From positions 1 through 41,878 of the forward strand of contig WREW01000010.1 in assembly GCA_009779135.1 (NCBI GenBank): a stretch of 41,878 bases of DNA. Reading direction: 5' to 3'. The notes under the pieces are model-generated. The model searched no databases. It worked only from the letters and a program-made list of their open reading frames with translations, and had not been told where the DNA came from. Every line of letters begins with the position of its first letter. Within the stretch, counting starts at the first letter, position 1. Shown here piece by piece: positions 3,731-40,902 of this stretch. This DNA comes from Alphaproteobacteria bacterium (lineage in GTDB: Bacteria > Pseudomonadota > Alphaproteobacteria > UBA9219). Both the position numbers and the translations under genes were made by a program.

Positions 3731-4918
3731 TTGACCCAATCACAAAAATCCGTTCAACAAGCGTTACCAGAGGGGACAGTTGTCCGCGTGGGACCTGATG
3801 GGCTGGAGGCTCTGGTCGCCTTGCTCAAGCAAGTCGGCTACACAACCATCGGCCCGACCGTCAAGGATGACGCTGTTGTTTATCAGGAAATCAATACAAC
3901 CAAAGATTTCCCCATAGGCTGGGCGGACGATCAGGATGGCGGTACTTACCGCCTTGTTCAGGGCACCAAAGGTGCCTTTTTCGATTATCTGGTCGGCCCG
4001 ACAAGTCCCAAGCGCTATTTCTTCCCGCCTCAGAACAAGCTGTGGGGCGCCAGCAAGGAACAGGGCCATTTTGAAGTGGAAAAACCGGCAGAAGAAGCGC
4101 CTTCTTATGCCTTTATCGGCGTGCGCTCCTGTGAGCTTCGCGCGATTATCGTGCAAGACCGCGTCTTCGGCTTCGCGCGGGAGGATCAGCATGACAAGGG
4201 CATCTTCTCTGATCCTTATTATGTTGAGCGGCGCAAGAAGTCCTTGATTATTGCCGTCAACTGCCGCCGCGCGGGCAAAACCTGTTTTTGCGTTTCCATG
4301 GGGGGCGATCCTCATGTGCGTCATGGCGAAGGGTTTGATCTTGCCTTGACGGAAATCATGGAAGGCTCGCAGCATCATTTCCTGATTGAGGTGGGCAGTG
4401 AGCGCGGCGGGTTGATCCTTGCTCTGCTGCCGTTCGAAGCGGCCAAGGATCAGGATCTTGTCGCACGCAAGACTCAGGCTGAAAAGGCAAGGGGGCAGAT
4501 GGGCCGCACGATGGTGGCGGATGTCAATCCTCTCCTCAAAAACAACCTGACGCATAGCCGGTGGGAGGATGTGGCCTCGCGCTGCTTGTCCTGCGCTAAC
4601 TGTACCATGGTCTGTCCGACCTGTTTTTGCAGCAATGTTGAGGAACGCACGGATCTTACCGGCGACCACACCGAGCGCTGGCGGACGTGGGATTCATGCT
4701 TTTCCATTGATTACAGCTACATCCATGGCGGCCCGATCCGTAAGGAAACCAAGTCGCGTTATCGCCAGTGGATGACGCACAAGCTTTCAAGCTGGTGGGA
4801 TCAGTTCGGCCTGTCGGGCTGTGTGGGATGCGGGCGCTGTATCACTTGGTGTCCGGTTGGCATTGATATCACGCAAGAGGCCGCAGCGATTAAGAAAAGC
4901 GAGGAGTGTCAGACATGA
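3731..4918 (+). CDS. hydB: [NiFe] hydrogenase group 3b, beta (Fe-S) subunit
   Basis: Electron-transfer subunit that passes electrons between the hydrogenase dimer and the flavin subunit in cytosolic NADP-linked hydrogenase (sulfhydrogenase type). The 395-residue product carries two C-terminal [4Fe-4S] motifs, [11 protein letters not shown] (285-295) followed by PTCFC, and [11 protein letters not shown] (364-374) followed by PVGID. Further cysteines lie in the N-terminal domain ([16 protein letters not shown]). The start is a TTG preceded by a near-perfect AGGAGGT ribosome site; no ATG lies nearby in frame. It is the first gene of a hydB-G-D-A operon, the order known from Pyrococcus furiosus. 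The 3' end overlaps the next gene by four bases. Confidence 0.9.
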
Positions 4919-5787
4919 CCAAACAGTCTTCATGCAAGGGAAACTGTCGGTGCTATACGGCGGAGACTGGCCCCATGGTGCCACGCCCCTTTAAGGTTGT
5001 CGAAATCTGGAAAGAGCTTGCCGATACGTTCAGCATGAGGCTTGAACCTCTGGATGGCTGTCCGGCCTTTTTTGCGCCCGGGCAGTTCAATATGCTTTAC
5101 GTCTTCGGCGTGGGTGAGGTTCCTATCAGCGTCAGCGGTGATGCGGCTCAGTCGGGCGAGATTTTGCACACGACCCGCATTGTCGGCAATGTCACCAAGG
5201 CGATGAGCGCGTTTAAGCCCGGCATGACTGTCGGGTTGCGCGGGCCTTTCGGCACGCGCTGGCCTTTGGATGTAGCGGACGGCAAGGATCTGGTTTTTGT
5301 CGCGGGCGGTATTGGCCTTGCGCCTTTGCGCCCTGCCATTTATCAGGCGTTTGCGGATCGGCATCGTTACGGCAATATTGTTATTCTTGTCGGCGCGCGC
5401 ACGCCTGAGGATATGCTTTACGCCAAGGAGCTTGCGCGGTGGAAATCGCGTTTTGATCTTGATGTTCAAGTCACAGTGGATCATGCCACGGGCAACTGGC
5501 AGGGGCGCGTCGGGTTTGTGACCAAGCTGATTGCTTCGGGCGGGTTTGATCCCAAAAACACCGTCGCCTACACTTGCGGGCCTGAGATCATGATGCGCAC
5601 CACGATCAAGGCTCTTAACGATCGTGGCGTGACCAACGATCACATCTATGTTTCCATGGAACGCAGCATGAAATGCGCTGTGGGCTTCTGCGGGCACTGC
5701 CAGTGGGGGCCGGAGTTTATCTGTCGGGACGGCCCCGTGTACCGTTTCGATCAAATCGCAAAAAGCTTTAATATTGAGGAGCTTTAG
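4915..5787 (+). CDS. hydG: [NiFe] hydrogenase group 3b, gamma (FAD/NAD(P)) subunit
   Basis: Diaphorase subunit that exchanges electrons with NAD(P)H through FAD. The 290-residue product has a ferredoxin-reductase fold: an FAD-binding barrel with PISVSGD (about 65-71), a nucleotide-binding domain with VAGGIGLAPLRPA and the CGPEIMM motif, and a C-terminal [2Fe-2S]-type cysteine cluster CAVGFCGHCQWGPEFIC. A GTG nine bases upstream is in frame, but the ATG at 4915 has a GAGGAG ribosome site eight bases before it and makes an ATGA overlap with hydB, so it is preferred. The symbol follows Pyrococcus hydBGDA usage; it is not the [FeFe]-hydrogenase maturase HydG. Confidence 0.9.
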   Translation: MTKQSSCKGNCRCYTAETGPMVPRPFKVVEIWKELADTFSMRLEPLDGCPAFFAPGQFNMLYVFGVGEVPISVSGDAAQSGEILHTTRIVGNVTKAMSAFKPGMTVGLRGPFGTRWPLDVADGKDLVFVAGGIGLAPLRPAIYQAFADRHRYGNIVILVGARTPEDMLYAKELARWKSRFDLDVQVTVDHATGNWQGRVGFVTKLIASGGFDPKNTVAYTCGPEIMMRTTIKALNDRGVTNDHIYVSMERSMKCAVGFCGHCQWGPEFICRDGPVYRFDQIAKSFNIEEL

Positions 5788-5790
5788 ACC

Positions 5791-6612
5791 ATGAACGCCA
5801 TGCTCAACAAAAAAGCAAAGCCCAAAACATCTGCCAAGCCCGGGCGCGCCAAGCCTAAAGTGGCAGTGTGGAAGTTTGCCTCTTGTGACGGCTGCCAGCT
5901 CAGCCTTTTGTCCTGTGAGGATGAGCTTTTGGACGTTGTGGGTGAGATCCAGATCGCCTACTTCCTTGAAGCCACAAGCGCGAAGATTGAAGGGCCTTAT
6001 GATATTTCGCTGGTGGAAGGTTCGATTACGACCGAACATGACGCCAAGCGCATCCGCAAAATCCGCGAGCAATCTAAAGCGCTGATTACCATCGGCGCCT
6101 GCGCCACGTCCGGCGGTATTCAGGCTTTGCGTAACTTTGCTGATGTTAATGCTTATACCCGCGCGGTTTATGCAAGGCCGGATTATATTCATACGCTGAA
6201 AACATCATCCCCCATTCAGGATCATGTGCCGGTGGATTATGAACTTCGCGGCTGCCCGATCAACAAGATGCAGCTTCTTGAGGTTATCAACGCAACGCTC
6301 AATGGCCGCACGCCCAACATATCGCATGTTTCGCAGTGTATTGAGTGCAAAAGGCGCGGGACGGTCTGTTTGATGGTGGTCAAGGGGATACCCTGTCTGG
6401 GGCCGGTGACGCATGCGGGATGCGGGAATATTTGTCCTACAACGGATCGCGGATGTTTCGGGTGCTTTGGGCCTTCCGAAGCTGCCAACGGCGCGTCTTT
6501 GGCGCGTCAGCTGGAACGGCTTGGTATGAGCAAGCGCGAGATCAGGGACTTTTTCCGCTCCTACAACGCCAATGCTGTTGCTTTCCGCGAAACGAGTGAA
6601 ATATACGACTGA
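5791..6612 (+). CDS. hydD: [NiFe] hydrogenase group 3b, delta (small) subunit
   Basis: Small hydrogenase subunit carrying the iron-sulfur relay next to the NiFe site. The 273-residue product has the proximal-cluster motif [14 protein letters not shown] near residues 30-43, GACATSGG further on, and a cysteine-rich C-terminal part ([26 protein letters not shown]) for the other clusters. There is no twin-arginine signal, as expected for a cytosolic group 3 enzyme. It begins three bases after hydG. A second ATG three codons in is possible. The lysine- and proline-rich N-terminal tail (about 25 residues) is unusual but has no signal-peptide character. Confidence 0.92.
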
Positions 6613-6633
6613 TCATGTCAAAGGAGTTCCTTC

Positions 6634-7974
6634 ATGGCAACAAAGGTTAAGCCTCAAGCCGCAAAGGCATCAAAGAAAAACCTCACCCGCGTTATTGAGG
6701 TGGATGAACTTTCCCGTGTCGAAGGTGAAGGCGCTTTGTATGTGCGCGTTCAGGACGGCATTGTCAAAGAGTGCAAGTTCCGCATTGTTGAGCCTCCCCG
6801 TTTTTTCGAGGCCTTTTTGCAGGGGCGCAGCTATCTTGAAGTGCCCGACATCACCGCGCGCATTTGCGGCATCTGCCCCATGGCCTATCTGATGGGTTCG
6901 CAGCATGCGATGGAAGATGCTCTTTCCGTCAAGATTCCGCAGGATATTCACGATCTCCGCCGTCTTATGTATTGCGGGGAATGGATTGAAAGCCATGTTC
7001 TGCACGCCGCCATGCTTCATGCGCCGGATTTTCTCGGGCTTGATGATGTCCTGCAGCTTGCGGCCACGAATAAAGATGTTGTAGCCAATGCGCTACGCAT
7101 GAAAAAGCTTGGCAACGACCTTTTGGAAGTGATCGGCGGCGGGCGCGCTATCCATCCTGTGAACACACGGGTGGGCGGCTTTTACAAGCTTCCGGAAGCT
7201 GATGATTTAAGGGCGCTGATACCGGAACTTAAATGGGGGATTGAGGCTTCGCTGGCCATCGGCAAGCTTTTTGCGACCTTCCATTTTCCGGATTTCGAAT
7301 ATGACTATACCTGCGTTTCCATGGCGCATCCGGAAGTTTATGCCATTATGGAAGGCGGCATTAAGACCAATCGTGGGCAGAGCTTTCCGGTTTCCGACTA
7401 TCACAAGGTCTTTAAAGAGGTTCATATCCAGCACAGCTCGGCCTTGACGGGCCGCACGGTGGATGGCAACCAGCCTTATTTAACGGGGCCTTTGGCGCGG
7501 TATAACAATAATTATGATTTCCTTACCGACCTGTCCAAAAAGGCGGCCAAGGCGATGGGGCTGGACAAGACCTGCTACAACCCCTTCAAAAGCATTCTTG
7601 TGCGCATGGTTGAGACGGTTTATTGCTGCGAGGAAGCCATCCGACTTATTGAAGCGTACAAGAAACCTAAAGCGCCCTTTGTTCCCAGCTCGCCGGCGGC
7701 CGCCACAGGCTATGGCGCGAGTGAGGCGCCACGGGGCGTGTGCTATCATTCCTACAAGCTTGACTCTGATGGACGGGTTTTGAACGCGGTGATTTCGTCA
7801 CCCACAGCGCAGAACCAGCCGCAGATCGAGCGTGATCTTGAAGGCGTCATTGCGCGAAATCTTGATAAGAATGACCGCGACCTAACCTTGCTGTGCGAGC
7901 AGGCTATCCGCAATTATGACCCGTGCATCTCCTGCTCGGCGCATTTCCTGCGGCTTACGATGGTGCGGGATTAG
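6634..7974 (+). CDS. hydA: [NiFe] hydrogenase group 3b, alpha (large, catalytic) subunit
   Basis: Catalytic subunit that holds the NiFe(CN)2CO centre and interconverts H2 with protons and electrons. The 446-residue product has RVEGEG, the L1 motif RICGICP (Cys78, Cys81) and the L2 motif DPCISCSAH (Cys431, Cys434, His437). Nine residues (FLRLTMVRD) follow the L2 histidine. They are the expected short C-terminal peptide cut off by a dedicated endopeptidase, a candidate for which lies at 21131-21604. A GGAG ribosome site precedes the ATG. Its stop overlaps by four bases the end of the convergent array gene. Physiologically it may produce H2 from NADPH or oxidise H2; the sequence does not decide. 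Confidence 0.94.
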   Translation: MATKVKPQAAKASKKNLTRVIEVDELSRVEGEGALYVRVQDGIVKECKFRIVEPPRFFEAFLQGRSYLEVPDITARICGICPMAYLMGSQHAMEDALSVKIPQDIHDLRRLMYCGEWIESHVLHAAMLHAPDFLGLDDVLQLAATNKDVVANALRMKKLGNDLLEVIGGGRAIHPVNTRVGGFYKLPEADDLRALIPELKWGIEASLAIGKLFATFHFPDFEYDYTCVSMAHPEVYAIMEGGIKTNRGQSFPVSDYHKVFKEVHIQHSSALTGRTVDGNQPYLTGPLARYNNNYDFLTDLSKKAAKAMGLDKTCYNPFKSILVRMVETVYCCEEAIRLIEAYKKPKAPFVPSSPAAATGYGASEAPRGVCYHSYKLDSDGRVLNAVISSPTAQNQPQIERDLEGVIARNLDKNDRDLTLLCEQAIRNYDPCISCSAHFLRLTMVRD

Positions 7975-25970: not shown

Positions 25971-26807
25971 TTACTGTATAGCCAGAATAACGCCAAGAAC
26001 CGAAAGTTCGACAAGCTCCTGCGTGGTGCCGAGGAGGGAGCCGTTATACCCGCGTAGGTGGTTGGCGCCGAGCAAAGCGACAACAAGCCCGATTCCGCCG
26101 CTGATGGAAAGGATATAAAGCGCGTCCGTGCTAAAGGCCAGATTGGCAATGATAATGCCGATCATAAGCGCTATGATCGTGCGTATGGGCGAGGTTCGCT
26201 GGAAATACCGCGCAACAGGATCTTCCGCAATAGGACGCAGCCAAGAGCTCACGACGCTCATCATCGCGCGCGACCAGCTGCCTGCGGTGACAAGCGCGCA
26301 AAGGACGATAAGGCTATCGCTCAGGCTGGCGATGGCGCCGATTTTCATAATGATGATGATAATGACGGCCAGAGTGCCGTATTGAACCGAGCGTTCCTCC
26401 CGCAGCCACCCCACGCCTTGGGATTTTTCAAGCGTGCGGCTGTAGCGGTTGGCCATGCTGGCGAATTCTTCCTCATGCAAAGCGCGGGTAAGCCACAGGC
26501 TGCCGATGACCGCGAAAGAGGCGGTGATAATGCCCGGAAGGCCGGCCTGCGTGAAAATCCAGTCTATGCAGGCGGCAAAAAGGCCGATGCCGGCGCCCAC
26601 CAGCGGAAACCAGCTTACGGCGCGGCGAATGACGGAGGGTGTAGGTTCCTCAGAAAGTTTAAGGTTAAGGCGGGTGAGGTAGTTGATGGCGACGACGATT
26701 TCGGCCCACAGGGATTCGGCTTTCGGCGCTTTGACGATGATGCCGCCTTTTATGGCCCCAAGGGGCGTCCGGGCATGATTGGATGTCCGGTTTTCCGGCG
26801 ATTCCAT
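25971..26807 (-). CDS. CobS-like membrane protein with degenerate active-site motif
   Basis: A 278-residue polytopic membrane protein with the plan of adenosylcobinamide-GDP ribazoletransferase: NYLTRLNLKL near the start, the AVSWFPLVGAGIGLFAA segment, an ALHEEE motif, and HLRGYNGSLLGTTQELVEL near the C-terminus. In active CobS the central motif reads roughly GALHEDGLADTADG and the late one GGxTGDxLGA; here the acidic residues are changed (ALHEEEFASMANR; NGS), so normal cobalamin synthase activity is doubtful. The start chosen, ATG 26807, has a GGAG site at good spacing; upstream ATGs at 26858 and 26927 are in frame. No other cob genes are nearby. Confidence 0.65.
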   Translation of the reverse strand: MESPENRTSNHARTPLGAIKGGIIVKAPKAESLWAEIVVAINYLTRLNLKLSEEPTPSVIRRAVSWFPLVGAGIGLFAACIDWIFTQAGLPGIITASFAVIGSLWLTRALHEEEFASMANRYSRTLEKSQGVGWLREERSVQYGTLAVIIIIIMKIGAIASLSDSLIVLCALVTAGSWSRAMMSVVSSWLRPIAEDPVARYFQRTSPIRTIIALMIGIIIANLAFSTDALYILSISGGIGLVVALLGANHLRGYNGSLLGTTQELVELSVLGVILAIQ

Positions 26808-26985
26808 AAAAGGCTCCGTCCTAGCGGGAGGCGGAGATTCATTAGGATCTTCAATCATAAGATTCTTATAAAGTCTTACAAAAAAAATGCAATCAAGGAT
26901 TTCCCGCCAGATACAGTTTTTCCCCATACTGTGACTTTTCCTATTGTCACAAAAGGAACTTACGGCTATACAAAGCCCGTTATAA

Positions 26986-28821: not shown

Positions 28822-30918
28822 TTATTTGCGGCGCGATGCTCCGGTGGGTTCAGCTCTCTCATCGGTGGGCGGAACTTGTGCGCGGATTTTGATTTTGGGT
28901 TGTTTGGAATCAGGGACAAGTCCGGCTTTAAGGCGCGGGGTTTTTCTTTTGATGAGAGGTGCGGACTCCTGAAAGGCCACAGACTGCTGCGGACGCGCAA
29001 GAGACTGTGGCGTGTAGAGCATCAGGCTGTGCAGGCCTTGCTGCCAAGCCTCTATAATAAGCTTGCCACGCAAAGAGGCAGTCAAGGTGCCCGGGACGGT
29101 GAGTTTGACTCCCACATCGCCCATCATGAAAGTTTGAACAGATGAGGCCATGCGCAAAAGCGCCTCGGGCGTGGTTTGTTCTTGCGTGACAAAAAGCGCG
29201 CGGTCTTTGGTGGCCAGTTCAAGCACTGTGCCGACATGCCTATGGCCGCAGCAGAAATGGTTGGCTGTTTCGATATCTTTGGTTGTGAAGCCGAGATGCC
29301 TTAATATATCAAGATGCGGGTCTTTCACGGCGCGCGCGCTTAGCCCGAGTTTCTGCATACAGAAATCCTCGCCCAAAGCCCAAGGCGTGAAGGCCAGACG
29401 TATATGGTCAACGAAAGGAAGCGTGGCTTCAATATGTTTTAACGTTTTTTCATCAAAGCCTTTGTCCTGCAGGATCGTGTGGTTGATAGCCGGCGCGGCG
29501 CGCAGCGTTTTATATCCTACAATGTGATCGACAATCGCGCGTATATCCGCAGCGTTGTAGCCGCGTTTTTCGAGCGCATACAGAACGGGTTTGCGCACGC
29601 AGCGTATAAAGCGCTCATTTCCGGCGTTGTAGCTGCAGGCGAGTACGGATTCAGCCTCGATGCCGTAAGAGGTGCTGTCGAGAAGGGCCGCCGGCGGCCT
29701 TATCGCACTCAGCGTTGTTAGCTGCATATGGCGCAGGCCGTGTTTTTGCACAAGGCGCAGGGCTTCTTCACTGGCGTAACGCGCGCGCGCGATCAGCGCA
29801 AGATCCGCGCCCGAGTCAATATCAAGCGTTTGCGGCAGGATTGATATATGATCGTAGTCGTTGCGCTCGCCGAAAGCGGCGCGCAGGCGGTTGCGCAGCG
29901 TGCGGATCATGCTTTCATGCGCGCGCGCAAAAGCTTTGCAGCTTCCCAAAAGCCCTGCAAGTTTCGCCGAGGTCGCAAGAGCCGTGCCCGTTATAATGGC
30001 GCTGATGCAGGCCGCCGTAATCCGCGCCTGAGAAGTGTCATAGGCCAGAGCCATGCTCATCAGCAAAGCCGCGAGGTTGGCAAAACAGATGGCCATGGGG
30101 CGCGTGGCGCTTTCTACGGTCAGATCTTCGTAAAAAATCTCAAGCAAAAGGACGGCGAGCTTTGTGGCCTGCGCTACACCTGCGGCGTCGAAACTTCCTT
30201 CTTCATCCAAAAACGCCATAAGGTTTAAAGCGGCGCTGGGCTGGTTTTGTGTTTCGGCGAAGCCATTCCATTCCGCCATGCTGTCGATAAAAGTGATATG
30301 CGTTTGCTTTTTGTCGAGGCTTCCCTGCAAATAGGTTTCCCATTTGTTTTGCGCCGTGGGATGCGCGCGGCGCAAAATGGAGTCCATTGTGTCGTTTTGT
30401 AAAATAAGCGATGAGGAAAGCTGCTGCGTGTTTGCCAGCGTGGCTGTTTTGTTTGCGCTTTTCTTTTCGATTCCGTAAGCCCATTCCAGACCGAGCGCGG
30501 CCATGGAGGCCGGTATCATCACAAGCCGCCGCGACAAAAGCGTCGCGCTCAATTCATCGTAGAAAGTGCGCGCCGCTTCCTCATCCTGCCACAGGCCCAT
30601 TTTCCAGCCTCGGCAGGTTGCGGCGCCGGCGATGCGTTCGAAAACATCCATGACGGAGGATTCCGGCTGAGGGGCCGCATCTTTTTGCGCCTTCCGCTGC
30701 CATAGCCATGAGGGGAGGGTATTTTCCTCGATAGAAACGCGCGCGGACGGGGCTTTGAGGAAAAGCGCTTGGGAAAAGGCTTGCGCGGCTTCGAGACTCC
30801 AGCTGTCCGGCACCAAAAGGGTTGGAATCATAGGCTCTTCAGGGCTTCCGGCGCGTACAAGGCCGGTTTTCAATGTATGCGACAGGGGGGCGGCTGTGAA
30901 GTGTCTCTCAAGAAGCAT
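28822..30918 (-). CDS. Pseudoenzyme derived from B12-dependent ribonucleotide reductase (NrdJ)
   Basis: A 698-residue intact reading frame. The N-terminus (LLERHFT, VPDSWS, TLPSWLWQ), a block at 91-150 (VFERIAGAATCRGWKMGLW, ARTFYDELSATLLSRR, LEWAYGI) and a long C-terminal part (about 230-580: ALNLMAFL, ATSAKLAGLLG, FTPWALGEDF, HLGFTTKDIE) follow alphaproteobacterial class II NrdJ closely in order. The stretch between AYGI and ALNL, about 300 residues in NrdJ, is only about 80 here, and the NPCSE catalytic motif is absent. The PTGTIG-type loop is replaced by AIRPPAALLD. The C-terminal cysteine tail is also missing, replaced by a basic tail. It cannot reduce ribonucleotides by the known mechanism; a regulatory or structural role is inferred from the intact frame. 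Confidence 0.75.
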   Translation of the reverse strand: MLLERHFTAAPLSHTLKTGLVRAGSPEEPMIPTLLVPDSWSLEAAQAFSQALFLKAPSARVSIEENTLPSWLWQRKAQKDAAPQPESSVMDVFERIAGAATCRGWKMGLWQDEEAARTFYDELSATLLSRRLVMIPASMAALGLEWAYGIEKKSANKTATLANTQQLSSSLILQNDTMDSILRRAHPTAQNKWETYLQGSLDKKQTHITFIDSMAEWNGFAETQNQPSAALNLMAFLDEEGSFDAAGVAQATKLAVLLLEIFYEDLTVESATRPMAICFANLAALLMSMALAYDTSQARITAACISAIITGTALATSAKLAGLLGSCKAFARAHESMIRTLRNRLRAAFGERNDYDHISILPQTLDIDSGADLALIARARYASEEALRLVQKHGLRHMQLTTLSAIRPPAALLDSTSYGIEAESVLACSYNAGNERFIRCVRKPVLYALEKRGYNAADIRAIVDHIVGYKTLRAAPAINHTILQDKGFDEKTLKHIEATLPFVDHIRLAFTPWALGEDFCMQKLGLSARAVKDPHLDILRHLGFTTKDIETANHFCCGHRHVGTVLELATKDRALFVTQEQTTPEALLRMASSVQTFMMGDVGVKLTVPGTLTASLRGKLIIEAWQQGLHSLMLYTPQSLARPQQSVAFQESAPLIKRKTPRLKAGLVPDSKQPKIKIRAQVPPTDERAEPTGASRRK

Positions 30919-31156
30919 CAGGAACCTTGGATGATCTATATGATGGGGTGCTGGAGTTTTTTCTCACAAAATCTTGGAGGTGCAAAGAAAAAGATACTCA
31001 CAGGGGATAATGTTAACCGGTGGAAAGGAAAAGAAAATCGCCGGTCGCGGGCGGCGTGTCTCTTTTTTTGTACACAGTTTTTTTCATGTCTTTGCAGGGG
31101 CGTTATGTTTTTTGAGGGCTTGTCTTGGAGCTTTGGACCGCGCTAGCATCTTTTTC

Positions 31157-31564
31157 ATGTTTGAATCTCTTTCTTTTGTGCGGCGGATTTCCCAAATTGG
31201 GACAAGGCTCCATATTGCGCTCTTCGGCGTCTTTGTGGGGGAAGATGCGATGGGCAACCGCTATTACAGGTCTTTGGGGCAGCCGGAAAGGCGCTGGGTG
31301 CTTTATCGCGGTGAGGCTGAGGCCTCGCTTGTCTCGCCTTTGTGGTTTGGCTGGCTTCACCACCAGTGCGATCAGCCCTTGCCTGAGGATGAGGAAGTCC
31401 GTTACCCTTGGCAGAAAGCGCCGGAGCCGAATCTGACAGGCACGCCTTATGCTTATGCCGCGCCCGCAAGCCGTGTGTGGCAAGCGCGGCCCACGCAGGA
31501 CGAGGCGCGTCAAAGCTGGCAGGGGATTTTTGAGGGAGACCACAATGGGACGCAATGCGATTGA
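31157..31564 (+). CDS. NADH:ubiquinone oxidoreductase subunit NDUFA12 family
   Basis: A 135-residue homologue of the accessory complex I subunit B17.2/NDUFA12, found in alphaproteobacteria and mitochondria. Landmarks are FGVFVGEDAMGNRYYRSL, RRWVLYRGEAEASLVSP, WFGWLHHQCDQPLP and PEPNLTGTPYAY. It probably docks on the peripheral arm of complex I at the inner membrane. In-frame upstream codons (about 61) are unlike the family and start in the spacer. The 238-bp spacer before it, shared with the divergent NrdJ-like gene, must hold both promoters; I could not fix them. Its end overlaps the mlaD start by 20 bases. Confidence 0.92.
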   Translation: MFESLSFVRRISQIGTRLHIALFGVFVGEDAMGNRYYRSLGQPERRWVLYRGEAEASLVSPLWFGWLHHQCDQPLPEDEEVRYPWQKAPEPNLTGTPYAYAAPASRVWQARPTQDEARQSWQGIFEGDHNGTQCD

Positions 31565-32015
31565 AACCGTTTTAGGGGCTGTTGTTCTGGCTGTCGCCGG
31601 TTTGTTTTTGGTTTTTGCCTTTAACAGCGCTGATTTGCGCAAGGTTCAAGGCTATCAGATTGTGGCCAATTTTCCCATGATTGATGGGATCAAGGAAGGC
31701 GGCGATCTTAAAGTAAACGGCGTCAAGGTCGGCTCGATTTCAAATATCCGTTTGATTACCGAGCCGGGTGCAACGCAGTATCTTGTGGCGGTGACGATGA
31801 CGGTTCTGCCTTCGGTCAGCATACCTATAGATTCCGTGGCCATGATCGCAAGTGAAGGGCTTATGGGGGGCAAGTATCTCTCGATCGAAATCGGCATTGA
31901 CGATATGATGCTGCCCAAGGACGGCACGGCGCGCCTGACGCGCACGCAGGCGCCTATGCGGCTTGATGATATGATCGGCAAGTTTATTTATGGCTCCGAC
32001 AGCAAAAAGGAATAA
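31545..32015 (+). CDS. mlaD: Outer-membrane lipid asymmetry protein MlaD (MCE domain)
   Basis: Inner-membrane-anchored periplasmic ring protein of the Mla phospholipid transporter. The 156-residue product has one N-terminal membrane helix (ETVLGAVVLAVAGLFLVFAF) and an MCE domain (YQIVANFPMIDGIKEGGDLKVNGVKVG through SEGLMGGKYLSIEIG). The start at 31545 has a GAGGGAG ribosome site. MlaE/MlaF are not in the window; mlaC lies at 36718-37455 on the other strand. The NDUFA12-mlaD-DUF2155 order is typical of alphaproteobacteria. Confidence 0.92.
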   Translation: MGRNAIETVLGAVVLAVAGLFLVFAFNSADLRKVQGYQIVANFPMIDGIKEGGDLKVNGVKVGSISNIRLITEPGATQYLVAVTMTVLPSVSIPIDSVAMIASEGLMGGKYLSIEIGIDDMMLPKDGTARLTRTQAPMRLDDMIGKFIYGSDSKKE

Positions 32016-32432
32016 GTGAGTATCGTGAAGTTTCTCTTTTCTCTTTTCCTTCTTTTCGCGCTTGTCGGAGATGTCTTTGCAGCTGTTCCCAGTGTGGATC
32101 GGCCTATTGCCATTTTGCGCGCTTTGGACAAAATCACCGCGCGTGTGGAGGAGATTGAGGTTCCTATCGGGGTTCCTTATCGCTTCGGCACTATTTTCAT
32201 CACTGTCCATAGCTGCCGCGTCACGACGCCCGAGGAGCAGCCGGAGTCGGCGGCCTTTATGGACGTCACCGCCCAGACGGAGGGCGAGGTACGAACCATT
32301 TTCACGGGCTGGATGTTTGCCTCCAGTCCGGCTTTGTCGGCTATGGAAGATCCCGTTTATGATCTGTGGCTTATGGGCTGCCGCCGCGACCCTAGGGATA
32401 AAGACCCTTCTGATGGGCAAACAACACCTTAA
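32016..32432 (+). CDS. DUF2155 domain protein, exported
   Basis: A 138-residue protein with a cleavable-looking signal peptide (VKFLFSLFLLFALVGDVFA). The mature part has the DUF2155 pattern: VPYRFGTIFITVHSCRVTTPEEQPESAAFMDV, then FTGWMFASSPALSAMEDPVYDLWLMGC. Two conserved cysteines may form a disulfide. The GTG start directly abuts the mlaD stop and has an AAGG site. The function of the family is unknown; in mitochondrial and bacterial genomes it travels with NDUFA12, which suggests an envelope or respiratory role. Confidence 0.88.
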   Translation: MSIVKFLFSLFLLFALVGDVFAAVPSVDRPIAILRALDKITARVEEIEVPIGVPYRFGTIFITVHSCRVTTPEEQPESAAFMDVTAQTEGEVRTIFTGWMFASSPALSAMEDPVYDLWLMGCRRDPRDKDPSDGQTTP

Positions 32433-37528: not shown

Positions 37529-38185
37529 TTAGGGCTGGTTTTGAATGATTTTTGTAATCTCGCCGTTGCATTGGTTTTGGACTTGCGCGTATTCCCGTGG
37601 CGTGTCGAGGGTTTCCTGCCAAGAGTCACGCTGCGCGCGGAACGCTTCTAAAATGGGTTTAACTCTGTCCAGAAAGATTTGAATCATCTCCTCCCGTGGG
37701 GTTTGAATGACGCCTATTTCCTGCGAAATGGTTTTGATCTTTTGTCTCAGATAAGGGATTTGCGCGGCTATGAAACTCTCATCCATTTTAATATGCTTCA
37801 TTTCATGCTCAAGGATGGCTCTGTAGGCGCAGCTGCCGTAAGGAAACTCCCGCGCGATAAAAATATCCGCTTGTTCGATGCCGAACTCTACATCCACTCT
37901 TTCAATCGCGGCGCAGGTTATGGGGGGATTTTGCGAGGTCATCGTTTGGATTCTCAGCGTGGGCGTGAAGGTAAGCGGCGAGGTTATGGTATAACCGCCC
38001 GGCGTTTCGTTTGCGGCATGAGGCGCCAGATCACGCAGTTGCGTAAGAGTGATGTCTTGAGTGATGCGCGTGGCAGGCATAACAGGCCTGACATGAACAC
38101 TGACATAAGGGGCAGGGGGGCAATAGGCGTAAAGCGTTGCGGGCAGAAAGAAAAAGATCAGAAAAAAAGAAAGAAACTTTTTCAT
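37529..38185 (-). CDS. Exported protein with HExxH motif, putative metallopeptidase
   Basis: A 218-residue protein with a clear signal peptide (KKFLSFFLIFFFLPATLYA) and then CPPAP. The motif ILEHEMKHIK contains HExxH, typical of zinc metallopeptidases; a third ligand cannot be assigned with confidence. Four to five cysteines in the mature part could form disulfides. The C-terminal half is helical. Its ATG overlaps the mgtA stop by one base (TGATG), so it is coupled to the Mg transporter and may act near it in the periplasm. Not recognised beyond the motif, although small alphaproteobacterial exported proteins with this motif exist. Confidence 0.65.
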   Translation of the reverse strand: MKKFLSFFLIFFFLPATLYAYCPPAPYVSVHVRPVMPATRITQDITLTQLRDLAPHAANETPGGYTITSPLTFTPTLRIQTMTSQNPPITCAAIERVDVEFGIEQADIFIAREFPYGSCAYRAILEHEMKHIKMDESFIAAQIPYLRQKIKTISQEIGVIQTPREEMIQIFLDRVKPILEAFRAQRDSWQETLDTPREYAQVQNQCNGEITKIIQNQP

Positions 38186-40902
38186 CACAGAAGTTCACCA
38201 TATTTCTTGGCATATATTTTTTTCAGCAGCGTCACCAAAAGCATATAAGCCGCCAGAGTTGCGGCGAGCCATGCATAATACACCGCCGGCAACGGAGTCA
38301 TGCCGATATTGCTGCCGAAGCCCGTATAGGGAATAAGCGTTCCCAGTGCGATTCCTGCGCTGGTGAAGATCAGGACGGGGAAAGACGCGCGGCTTTGCAG
38401 GAAGGGGATTTTCGGCGTGCGTATCATATGGATCACAAGCGTTTGTGACCATAGAGATTCAACAAACCATCCGGTATGAAACAGGGCGGCAAAGGCCACA
38501 TTGTCCACACCGGTTGCGCCATAGACGCCACCCAAAACTGCAGGGCAGATCACGAAGAACATAAGAAGGTAGGTTGTAATGTCAAAAACAGAACTTGTGG
38601 GGCCGATCCAGAGCATGAAAGATCCTATGGATTTGGCGTCCCATTTTCGCGGCCTGCGCAGATAATCTTCATCCACATTGTCCCAAGGAACAGAAATGCA
38701 GGATATGTCATAGATAAGATTCAGGATCAGGATTTGCAGCGGCAGCATGGGCAAAAACGGCAGAAAGGCGCTGGCCGCAAGCACTGAGAACATGTTGCCG
38801 AAATTGGAACTGGCCGTCATTTTGATGTATTTGATGATGTTGGCGAAAGTCTTGCGGCCTTCAACAACGCCTTCTTCCAGCACCATCAGGCTTTTTTCAA
38901 GTAGAATAATGTCGGCTGATTCCTTGGCGACGTCTACGGCGGAATCTACGGAAATGCCGACATCGGATTCTCGCATGGCCGGCGCGTCATTGATCCCGTC
39001 GCCAAGAAAACCTACCACATGGCCGCCTGCGCGAAGGCTGGCGATAATGCGTCTTTTTTGATCCGGGGAAAGTTTGGCGAAGATGTTGCAACGTTCCACT
39101 ACCTCGCTAAGCGCGGCGTCATCCATGCTTTCGATGTCTGTTCCTAAAATCACTTCATCGGCGGGCAGGCCTACCATGCGGCAAACGCTGCGGGTGACGG
39201 CGTCATTGTCGCCTGTCAGCACTTTGACTTTTACGCCATGTTCGTTCAAAGCGCGGATTGCGGCGGCGGCGGTTTCTTTGGGCGGGTCTAAAAAGGCCAG
39301 ATAGCCCATTAGCACCATATCTTTTTCATCTTGGACGGAAAAAGCTCCCGCAGGCGCGGGGCTATTTTTATGCGCAACGGCTAAAACACGCAGGCCGTCA
39401 TCATTTAATCTTTGCACCATGTTCAGGATGTCTTGCCGGACTTTGGGGCTTAACACTTCCACTTGGCCTTGGTATTCCGTATAGGCGCATGCGTCGAGCA
39501 TTTCTTCCACTGCGCCTTTGGTGATAAGCTGCGTTTTGCCGTTTGTGTCCCGAATAACCACGCTCATGCGGCGGCGGTTGAAGTCGAAGGGAATCTCGTC
39601 CACTTTGACATATATGTCTTTTAAGCCTCGGATTCCCGTATCTTCCGCATGTTTTAAGATAGCTACGTCCATCAGATTCTTCAGGCCGGTTTGGAAATAG
39701 CTGTTGGCGAAGGCGTGGCGCAGCACTCTTATATCTTGATCGCCGTGGATGTTCAGGTAACGCTCCAGCACGATATTGTCTTGGGTGAGCGTGCCGGTTT
39801 TGTCGGTGCATAAAATATCCATCGCGCCGAAGTTCTGGATAGAATCCAGTTTCTTGATGACCGTTTTTTTTCTGGCCATACGCACGGCGCCTTTGGCAAG
39901 GTTTGTGGTGACGATCATGGGCAGCATTTCAGGCGTTAGGCCCACAGCTACGGAAAGCGCGAATAAAAAGGCCTGAAGCCAATCGCCCTTGGTATAGCCG
40001 TTTAAAAATAAAACCACCGGCACCATGACCATCATAAAGCGGATCAAAACCCAAGACACGGAATTGACGCCTTTTTCAAAACTGGTCACGACTTTGGCCG
40101 TGGTTCTGGCCAAAGAGCCGAAAATGGTGCTGTCACCCACGGCGATCACAAGACAAGTTGCCGTGCCGCTGATGACGTTGGTGCCGATAAAGGCAAGGTT
40201 GTCCAGATGCAGCGGTTCGTTATGGTCGAAGGTGCGGGTGGCGCTGAACTTTTCGACAGGCTCACTTTCGCCCGTTAGGGCGGATTGGCTGATGAACAAA
40301 TCTTTACAGGAAAGGATACGCACATCCGCCGGCACCATATCGCCCGCGGCCAGTGAGATGATGTCGCCGACCACGACATCTTCAAGGGGGATTTCGATTT
40401 TTCCTTGTTCGGCCCGCAGCACATTTGTGGTGGTTTTGACCATGGCTTTTAAGCGTTCTGCCGCTTTGTCGGAGCGGTATTCCTGCACAAAGCGCAAGGT
40501 GCCGCTGATAAAAACCATGGTTAAAATAATCACGACCGTTGTTAATTCGCGGTCTTCGGGGGATACAAACGCAAAATCCGTGAAAAAGGAAATACAGGCC
40601 AAAGCAAACAGCACAGCCGTAAAAGGATTGATAAAAGCGGAGATCAGACGTTTGAGAATGGATTCACCCTCATGCTGGGACATTTTATTCAAGCCGAATT
40701 TGTCCCGCATTTGTTCGACGGTTTCTTCCTTAAACCCGTGTTCTTCCGTATTGCCGTAATAATAAAGGAGATCCAGGCCCGGGGTTTTTGCGGCTTCAAG
40801 CAGGCGCTGGCGAGCGGGCGCGGAAAGTTCCGCCTCGGGCGAGGTCGTTTTGTTGTCGCTTGGCTGGACATCAGGCAGGGAGTCAGGGATGGCGTTTTCC
40901 AT
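38185..40902 (-). CDS. mgtA: Magnesium-translocating P-type ATPase
   Basis: Imports Mg2+ across the inner membrane at the cost of ATP (P3B type). The 905-residue product has the phosphorylation motif [31 protein letters not shown], the actuator region, [38 protein letters not shown], and [16 protein letters not shown], which is typical of MgtA/MgtB. About ten membrane helices are visible. An AGGAG ribosome site lies eight bases before the ATG. The 5' region has a six-pair hairpin, but no leader peptide or M-box that I can recognise, so Mg control is not shown by the sequence. Confidence 0.93.

Follow-up and report, generated by a model that had tools for sequence, protein, structure and literature searches.

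The alphaproteobacterial ribonucleotide reductase (RNR) NrdJ, represented by the family PRK07562 and by the R. sphaeroides structures 7b9p and 7b9q, is a class II enzyme of about 1230 residues. To our knowledge, bacterial RNRs have been regarded as purely catalytic. Inactive RNR large subunits are known from betaherpesviruses, as in HCMV UL45 and MCMV M45 (PMC5469499); these viral class I homologues were retained after loss of activity, are used for protein contacts and target host signalling. A limited search of the open-access literature returned no inactive RNR large subunit from a bacterium, and nothing relevant on TSCPD, pseudoenzymes or inactive NrdJ. Incomplete NrdJ polypeptides do have a precedent in Pseudomonas aeruginosa, in which NrdJ is split into NrdJa and NrdJb and both halves exist (PMC4009431). 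With regard to transcription, the boxes of the regulator NrdR are 16 bp long and spaced 15-16 bp apart (PMC12176259), and DnaA activates the class Ia RNR of E. coli (PMC4009431).

Here we describe a 698-residue NrdJ homologue encoded in a window of 41,878 nucleotides, the whole stretch of alphaproteobacterial DNA that was analysed. The gene resembles functional alphaproteobacterial nrdJ in descent, locus and neighbours, and its product shares the N-terminal domain, the C-terminal barrel half and a similar fold (Z 34), but this product has lost every radical, redox, specificity and phosphate-loop motif, as well as its Cys tail and TSCPD domain. Like the betaherpesvirus R1 homologues it appears to be a large subunit kept without activity, whereas it is cellular, belongs to class II, has half of the barrel deleted and, in relatives, is preceded by a promoter of NrdR/DnaA type. 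Unlike in P. aeruginosa, the missing half is nowhere in the window genome. The relatives' promoters share with the NrdR regulon genes nrdAB and nrdDG the tandem 16-bp boxes 15 bp apart, and with many nrdA genes the DnaA boxes; the product, however, is no active reductase, and the window copy is without box 2. An NrdR-type pair together with a DnaA box at such a gene is a new observation of this work.

Results

The ORF contains no internal stops (Table 1). Pfam PF08471 (Ribonuc_red_2_N) matches residues 34-128 (E 3e-9), and the match to the barrel profile PF02867 (E 1e-21) begins at position 230 of 523. Against NCBIfam PRK07562 the protein scores 309 bits, where the cut-off is 1737, and therefore misses the full-family threshold. 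Alignment to R. sphaeroides NrdJ (7b9p) pairs residues 34-154 with 41-171 and residues 228-613 with 489-889, such that the two retained blocks are co-linear with the enzyme and have about 250 fewer residues between them. The linker replaces the first barrel half of active NrdJ, with its redox Cys, specificity loops and NPCSE motif, and the tail occupies the place of the TSCPD domain and Cys tail. From class I and class II structures, we take the deleted segment to have held the canonical dimer helices together with the loops of the allosteric specificity site. A DUF3540 match (E 0.16) was disregarded, and TALE-repeat matches in a PDB sequence search (E 1e-5 and worse, scattered over the repeats) were attributed to chance.

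Table 1. Features of the nrdJ-derived gene, its promoter and its conserved neighbours (window coordinates)
Feature	Position	Strand	Evidence
nrdJ-derived pseudoenzyme gene, 698 aa	28822..30918	-	ORF, profile matches, alignment
Retained N-terminal domain, residues 34-154, PF08471	30457..30819	-	Pfam, alignment to 7b9p
Motif EENTLPSWLW, residues 64-73	30700..30729	-	conservation in 19 family members
Short divergent linker, residues 155-227	30238..30456	-	alignment, motif search
Retained C-terminal half of catalytic barrel, residues 228-640	28999..30237	-	alignment, predicted structure
Degenerate PTGTIG-loop position, about residues 404-413	29680..29709	-	alignment, motif search
Low-confidence, probably disordered tail, residues 641-698	28825..28998	-	predicted structure
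NrdR box 1 remnant CTCCAAGATTTTGTGA	30964..30979	-	6 consensus mismatches, recognised via relatives' alignment
Decayed NrdR box 2 position CCCCATCATATAGATC	30933..30948	-	alignment with relatives
Conserved TGTGAGTAT element, upstream of box 1	30994..31002	-	alignment with relatives
NDUFA12 gene, divergent neighbour at ancestral nrdJ locus	31250..31564	+	locus comparison
mlaD, conserved neighbour	31449..32015	+	locus comparison
DUF2155 gene, conserved neighbour	32016..32432	+	locus comparison

The motifs ACFIQ, GSGTGxN, GGTTRR, NPCSE, ACNL and PTGTIG, as well as the C-terminal Cys tail, are all missing from the protein, and their loss is shared throughout the window's order. The six barrel motifs were found in 0 of 28 proteins of the order, as compared to 66-67 of 67 full-length alphaproteobacterial NrdJ proteins, a set selected in part by PTGTI, which makes the PTGTIG row of this comparison circular but not the other five. 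The radical Cys and Glu of the finger loop (NxCxE) are present in all 67 full-length proteins and in none of the 28, the redox Cys pair of the barrel (ACFIQ, ACNL) is wanting in the order's NrdJ copies, and the Cys tail that serves re-reduction is gone from 28/28. Chemistry by these proteins, here termed dead NrdJ, is excluded as far as sequence allows. These results uphold the initial annotation where it described an intact, stop-free frame that joins the N-terminal domain to the C-terminal half of NrdJ in co-linear order, with the NPCSE motif absent, the PTGTIG-type loop altered and the thiol tail lost; descent from NrdJ stands on the significant PF08471, PF02867 and PRK07562 matches. The large barrel deletion is likewise real, although the 7b9p alignment places its size nearer to 250 residues than to the 220 proposed.

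The TSCPD domain, which seems to correspond to the IscU-like domain of PMC9669993, is missing from the 698-residue protein, a loss that the initial annotation had passed over. It was lost in the window's family (f1), in which a stand-alone version was looked for and not found, whereas both sister families retain it, f2 in 5/5 and f3 in 2/3. In the f2 copies (L111, L112, L113, L114, L115) it remains very similar to that of active NrdJ despite erosion of the barrel, which may point to a function of its own for this domain.

An RNR fold without part of the barrel is expected for the protein, because its AlphaFold2 model, built with 19 orthologues (pLDDT 80.8, pTM 0.82), superposes best on R. sphaeroides NrdJ (588 aligned residues, Z 34, rmsd 3.1), the next structural matches being RNRs of class I and further ones of class II. 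Model confidence falls below pLDDT 50 solely at the N-terminus, at residues 156-167 and in the tail from residue 639. A sister-family model with pLDDT 57 was left out of the evidence.

The order's 33 genomes, from 3 families and 15 genera, include 30 with dead NrdJ and none with a complete NrdJ. From about 1230 residues in active NrdJ, lengths fall to 874-1085 in f3, about 810 in f2 and about 700 in f1 (676-747 for intact copies). None of the 30 gene-bearing genomes has an internal stop in the gene, of which G023 has no more than a fragment and which is split over two contigs in G018; open copies without an active site are spread over many genera. UBA8914, UBA9219 and Lab288P3bin233 are examples of the MAGs that make up the close relatives. 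In the window's family, G006 (99% complete) has kept the neighbourhood without the gene, and G003 lacks both the gene and mlaD, an absence that may be an assembly gap. The sister-family genome G027 has no NrdJ body at its NDUFA12 locus; it has kept a stand-alone TSCPD protein of 190 residues (L225:4268-4840, minus strand).

A branch with 100/100 support separates every dead form from functional NrdJ in a tree of 52 sequences. The split allows a single loss without proving one, and the catalytic motifs were probably lost once, in the order's ancestral nrdJ. In nearly all members the gene is divergent from NDUFA12-mlaD-DUF2155, and the same neighbours are found at 43 of the 69 compared loci, which carry full-length nrdJ or close relatives, in a set taken outside the order that nevertheless includes a few of its members. 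Because these neighbours match the functional nrdJ locus, the dead gene is the ancestral nrdJ and not a new arrival, and its position was rejected as a pointer to a new function. Farther along the window, a 905-residue P-type cation ATPase is encoded at 38185-40902 (minus strand).

Dead NrdJ is under purifying selection, as judged from codon comparisons of relatives' copies rather than of the window copy. The NG86 dN/dS ratio is 0.037 at dS 0.93 for the pair G024/G028 and 0.113 at dS 0.82 for G004/G005, and is low across all 100-codon blocks of both pairs. Among 19 f1 sequences, which share about 30-50% identity with the window protein, 58 columns are invariant, and EENTxPSWLW is invariant at 9 of its 10 residues, with E64, N66, T67 and S70 under tighter constraint than in active NrdJ. 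Ratios of 0.04-0.11 in close relatives indicate that this is no ordinary pseudogene, and the earlier argument against simple decay is borne out by orthologues that are open and under purifying selection where it is measurable. An RNR fold without catalytic residues thus coincides with purifying selection, the latter drawn from relatives, as expected of a pseudoenzyme.

A tandem pair of NrdR-type boxes with an exact 31-bp period, typically CCACCATATTTTGTGG-N15-CTACATCATCTTGTGG, lies in the promoter of dead nrdJ in 16 of 19 f1 genomes as well as in one f3 genome, G025. The consensus for this search was taken from general knowledge. The 16-bp boxes and 15-16 bp linker agree with the published arrangement (PMC12176259). 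In each of the 17 promoters, 0 of 100 dinucleotide shuffles equalled the observed pair, and leave-one-out scores of 30-52 compare with 6.3 for the best unrelated ORF upstream region among 492, in which the higher scorers were dead nrdJ itself or its own divergent promoter. The second box overlaps TTGTGGATAA, a perfect DnaA 9-mer, in 16 of the 19 f1 promoters, as opposed to 7 of 461 background windows and 3 of 66 promoters of full-length nrdJ; the bases around the boxes are poorly conserved. The tandem pair is missing from f2 promoters. Similar pairs precede many of the active nrdA and nrdD genes in these genomes, including the window genome's nrdD (32-bp period), and an NrdR gene was found in 30 of the 33 genomes.

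The window's own promoter lacks a complete pair: the box 2 site has suffered a 3-bp deletion, the relatives' DnaA box is lost with it, and 8 of 100 shuffles are equally good. The counterpart of TGTGAGTAT in relatives is a DnaA-box-like TGTKARTAA. From the boxes, we infer that NrdR and DnaA bind at the dead nrdJ promoters of most family members, in which case the gene would be transcribed in step with active RNR genes and with replication.

Active RNRs vary by genome, being class I only, class III only, or both. The window genome has one class III NrdD with the glycyl-radical motif RVMGY, adjoined by a radical-SAM ORF of NrdG type (assigned by sequence reading and position), and a search for NrdB in this genome found none. 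Class I NrdA/NrdB is present in most relatives, and the motif NLCxE in 21/21 NrdA ORFs read. Soluble NiFe hydrogenase-like genes (Fer4_22, NAD-binding/DHODB Fe-S, Oxidored_q6, NiFeSe_Hases) occupy 3731-7974 (plus strand) of the window, fitting an anaerobe dependent on class III NrdD.

Discussion

We consider that the dead NrdJ is an RNR pseudoenzyme within a dNTP/replication regulon, acting via protein contacts without chemistry, and assign this explanation a probability of roughly 60%. The ancestral nrdJ lost its catalytic motifs and stayed at its own locus under purifying selection, with dNTPs made by class I NrdAB and/or class III NrdD. Selection has preserved the N-terminal domain and the half barrel and, in most f1 relatives, an nrd-type promoter as well. 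Through the NrdR boxes and the DnaA box, the gene would be expressed together with the active RNRs and with replication, and the boxes at relatives' promoters favour a link of dead NrdJ to dNTP supply. Contact with a partner may be made by the conserved N-terminal domain, which carries EENTxPSWLW, and by the half barrel, and the protein could then play a scaffolding or modulating part in dNTP supply or in replication. Counting against this explanation are the differing classes of active RNR among the genomes, which make a regulator of any single class not obvious, the two family members that lack the gene, the decayed NrdR/DnaA element of the window genome and the f2 promoters without a tandem pair. 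A more specific proposal, that an order-wide pseudoenzyme under NrdR and DnaA control is a non-catalytic regulator coupling dNTP supply to replication, is put forward tentatively, with the odds somewhat against it.

The initial annotation had also suggested a partner of a real NrdJ, which is not borne out, as no genome of the order holds a complete NrdJ and the active RNRs are of class I or III. A related possibility is a nucleotide-sensing subunit that directly binds and tunes an active RNR of class I or III, and the NrdR/DnaA-type promoter elements that dead nrdJ shares with nrdA and nrdD would be in keeping with it. We regard this as doubtful, in that the deletion has taken away the stretch assigned to the specificity loops and dimer helices, and the active RNR class differs among genomes.

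That the gene is a relic in slow decay, an nrdJ pseudogene with a frame open by chance, is less probable still, and is most plausible for the window genome only. Catalysis has been lost, sizes shrink stepwise between families, the window promoter is without box 2 and the DnaA box, and the NrdJ body has gone from G006 and G027; such a history, however, is hard to reconcile with the low dN/dS of relatives, the 58 invariant columns and the absence of internal stops across all 30 genomes with the gene.

Since the ancestor was a B12 enzyme, the protein might have kept cobalamin binding without chemistry, as a sensor or store, and a gene for a divergent CobS-like protein is found at a distance of 2 kb. 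The product of that gene (25971-26927, minus strand) matches PF02654 with 76 bits and is far below the cut-offs of the NCBIfam CobS models. The PTGTIG loop and finger-loop region, which in class II structures border the B12 site, are lost, and the window genome yielded no B12-binding-domain protein and no QueG. Above-cut-off B12-binding matches occur in just 3 of the order's 33 genomes, and the window holds no Rfam cobalamin riboswitch. B12 sensing, as the initial annotation had proposed, is accordingly unlikely, and we give cobalamin binding of either kind very little weight. Lastly, one half of a split and still active class II RNR, a reading suggested by the missing half barrel and by the Pseudomonas precedent (PMC4009431), is rejected with near certainty, as the whole genome has no second PF02867 match to supply the other half, and the PTGTIG motif and Cys tail, in or after the retained half, have been lost as well.

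Genome annotation may wrongly credit these organisms with a B12-dependent RNR. The graded forms of the protein (1085, 1014, 874, about 810 and about 700 residues, plus one stand-alone TSCPD) dissect its role by domain in a manner that is testable. For the pseudoenzyme itself, retention throughout the order, together with nrd-type promoter elements in most members of one family, implies for the NrdJ scaffold a second, non-catalytic role, which may also lie hidden in active NrdJ proteins.
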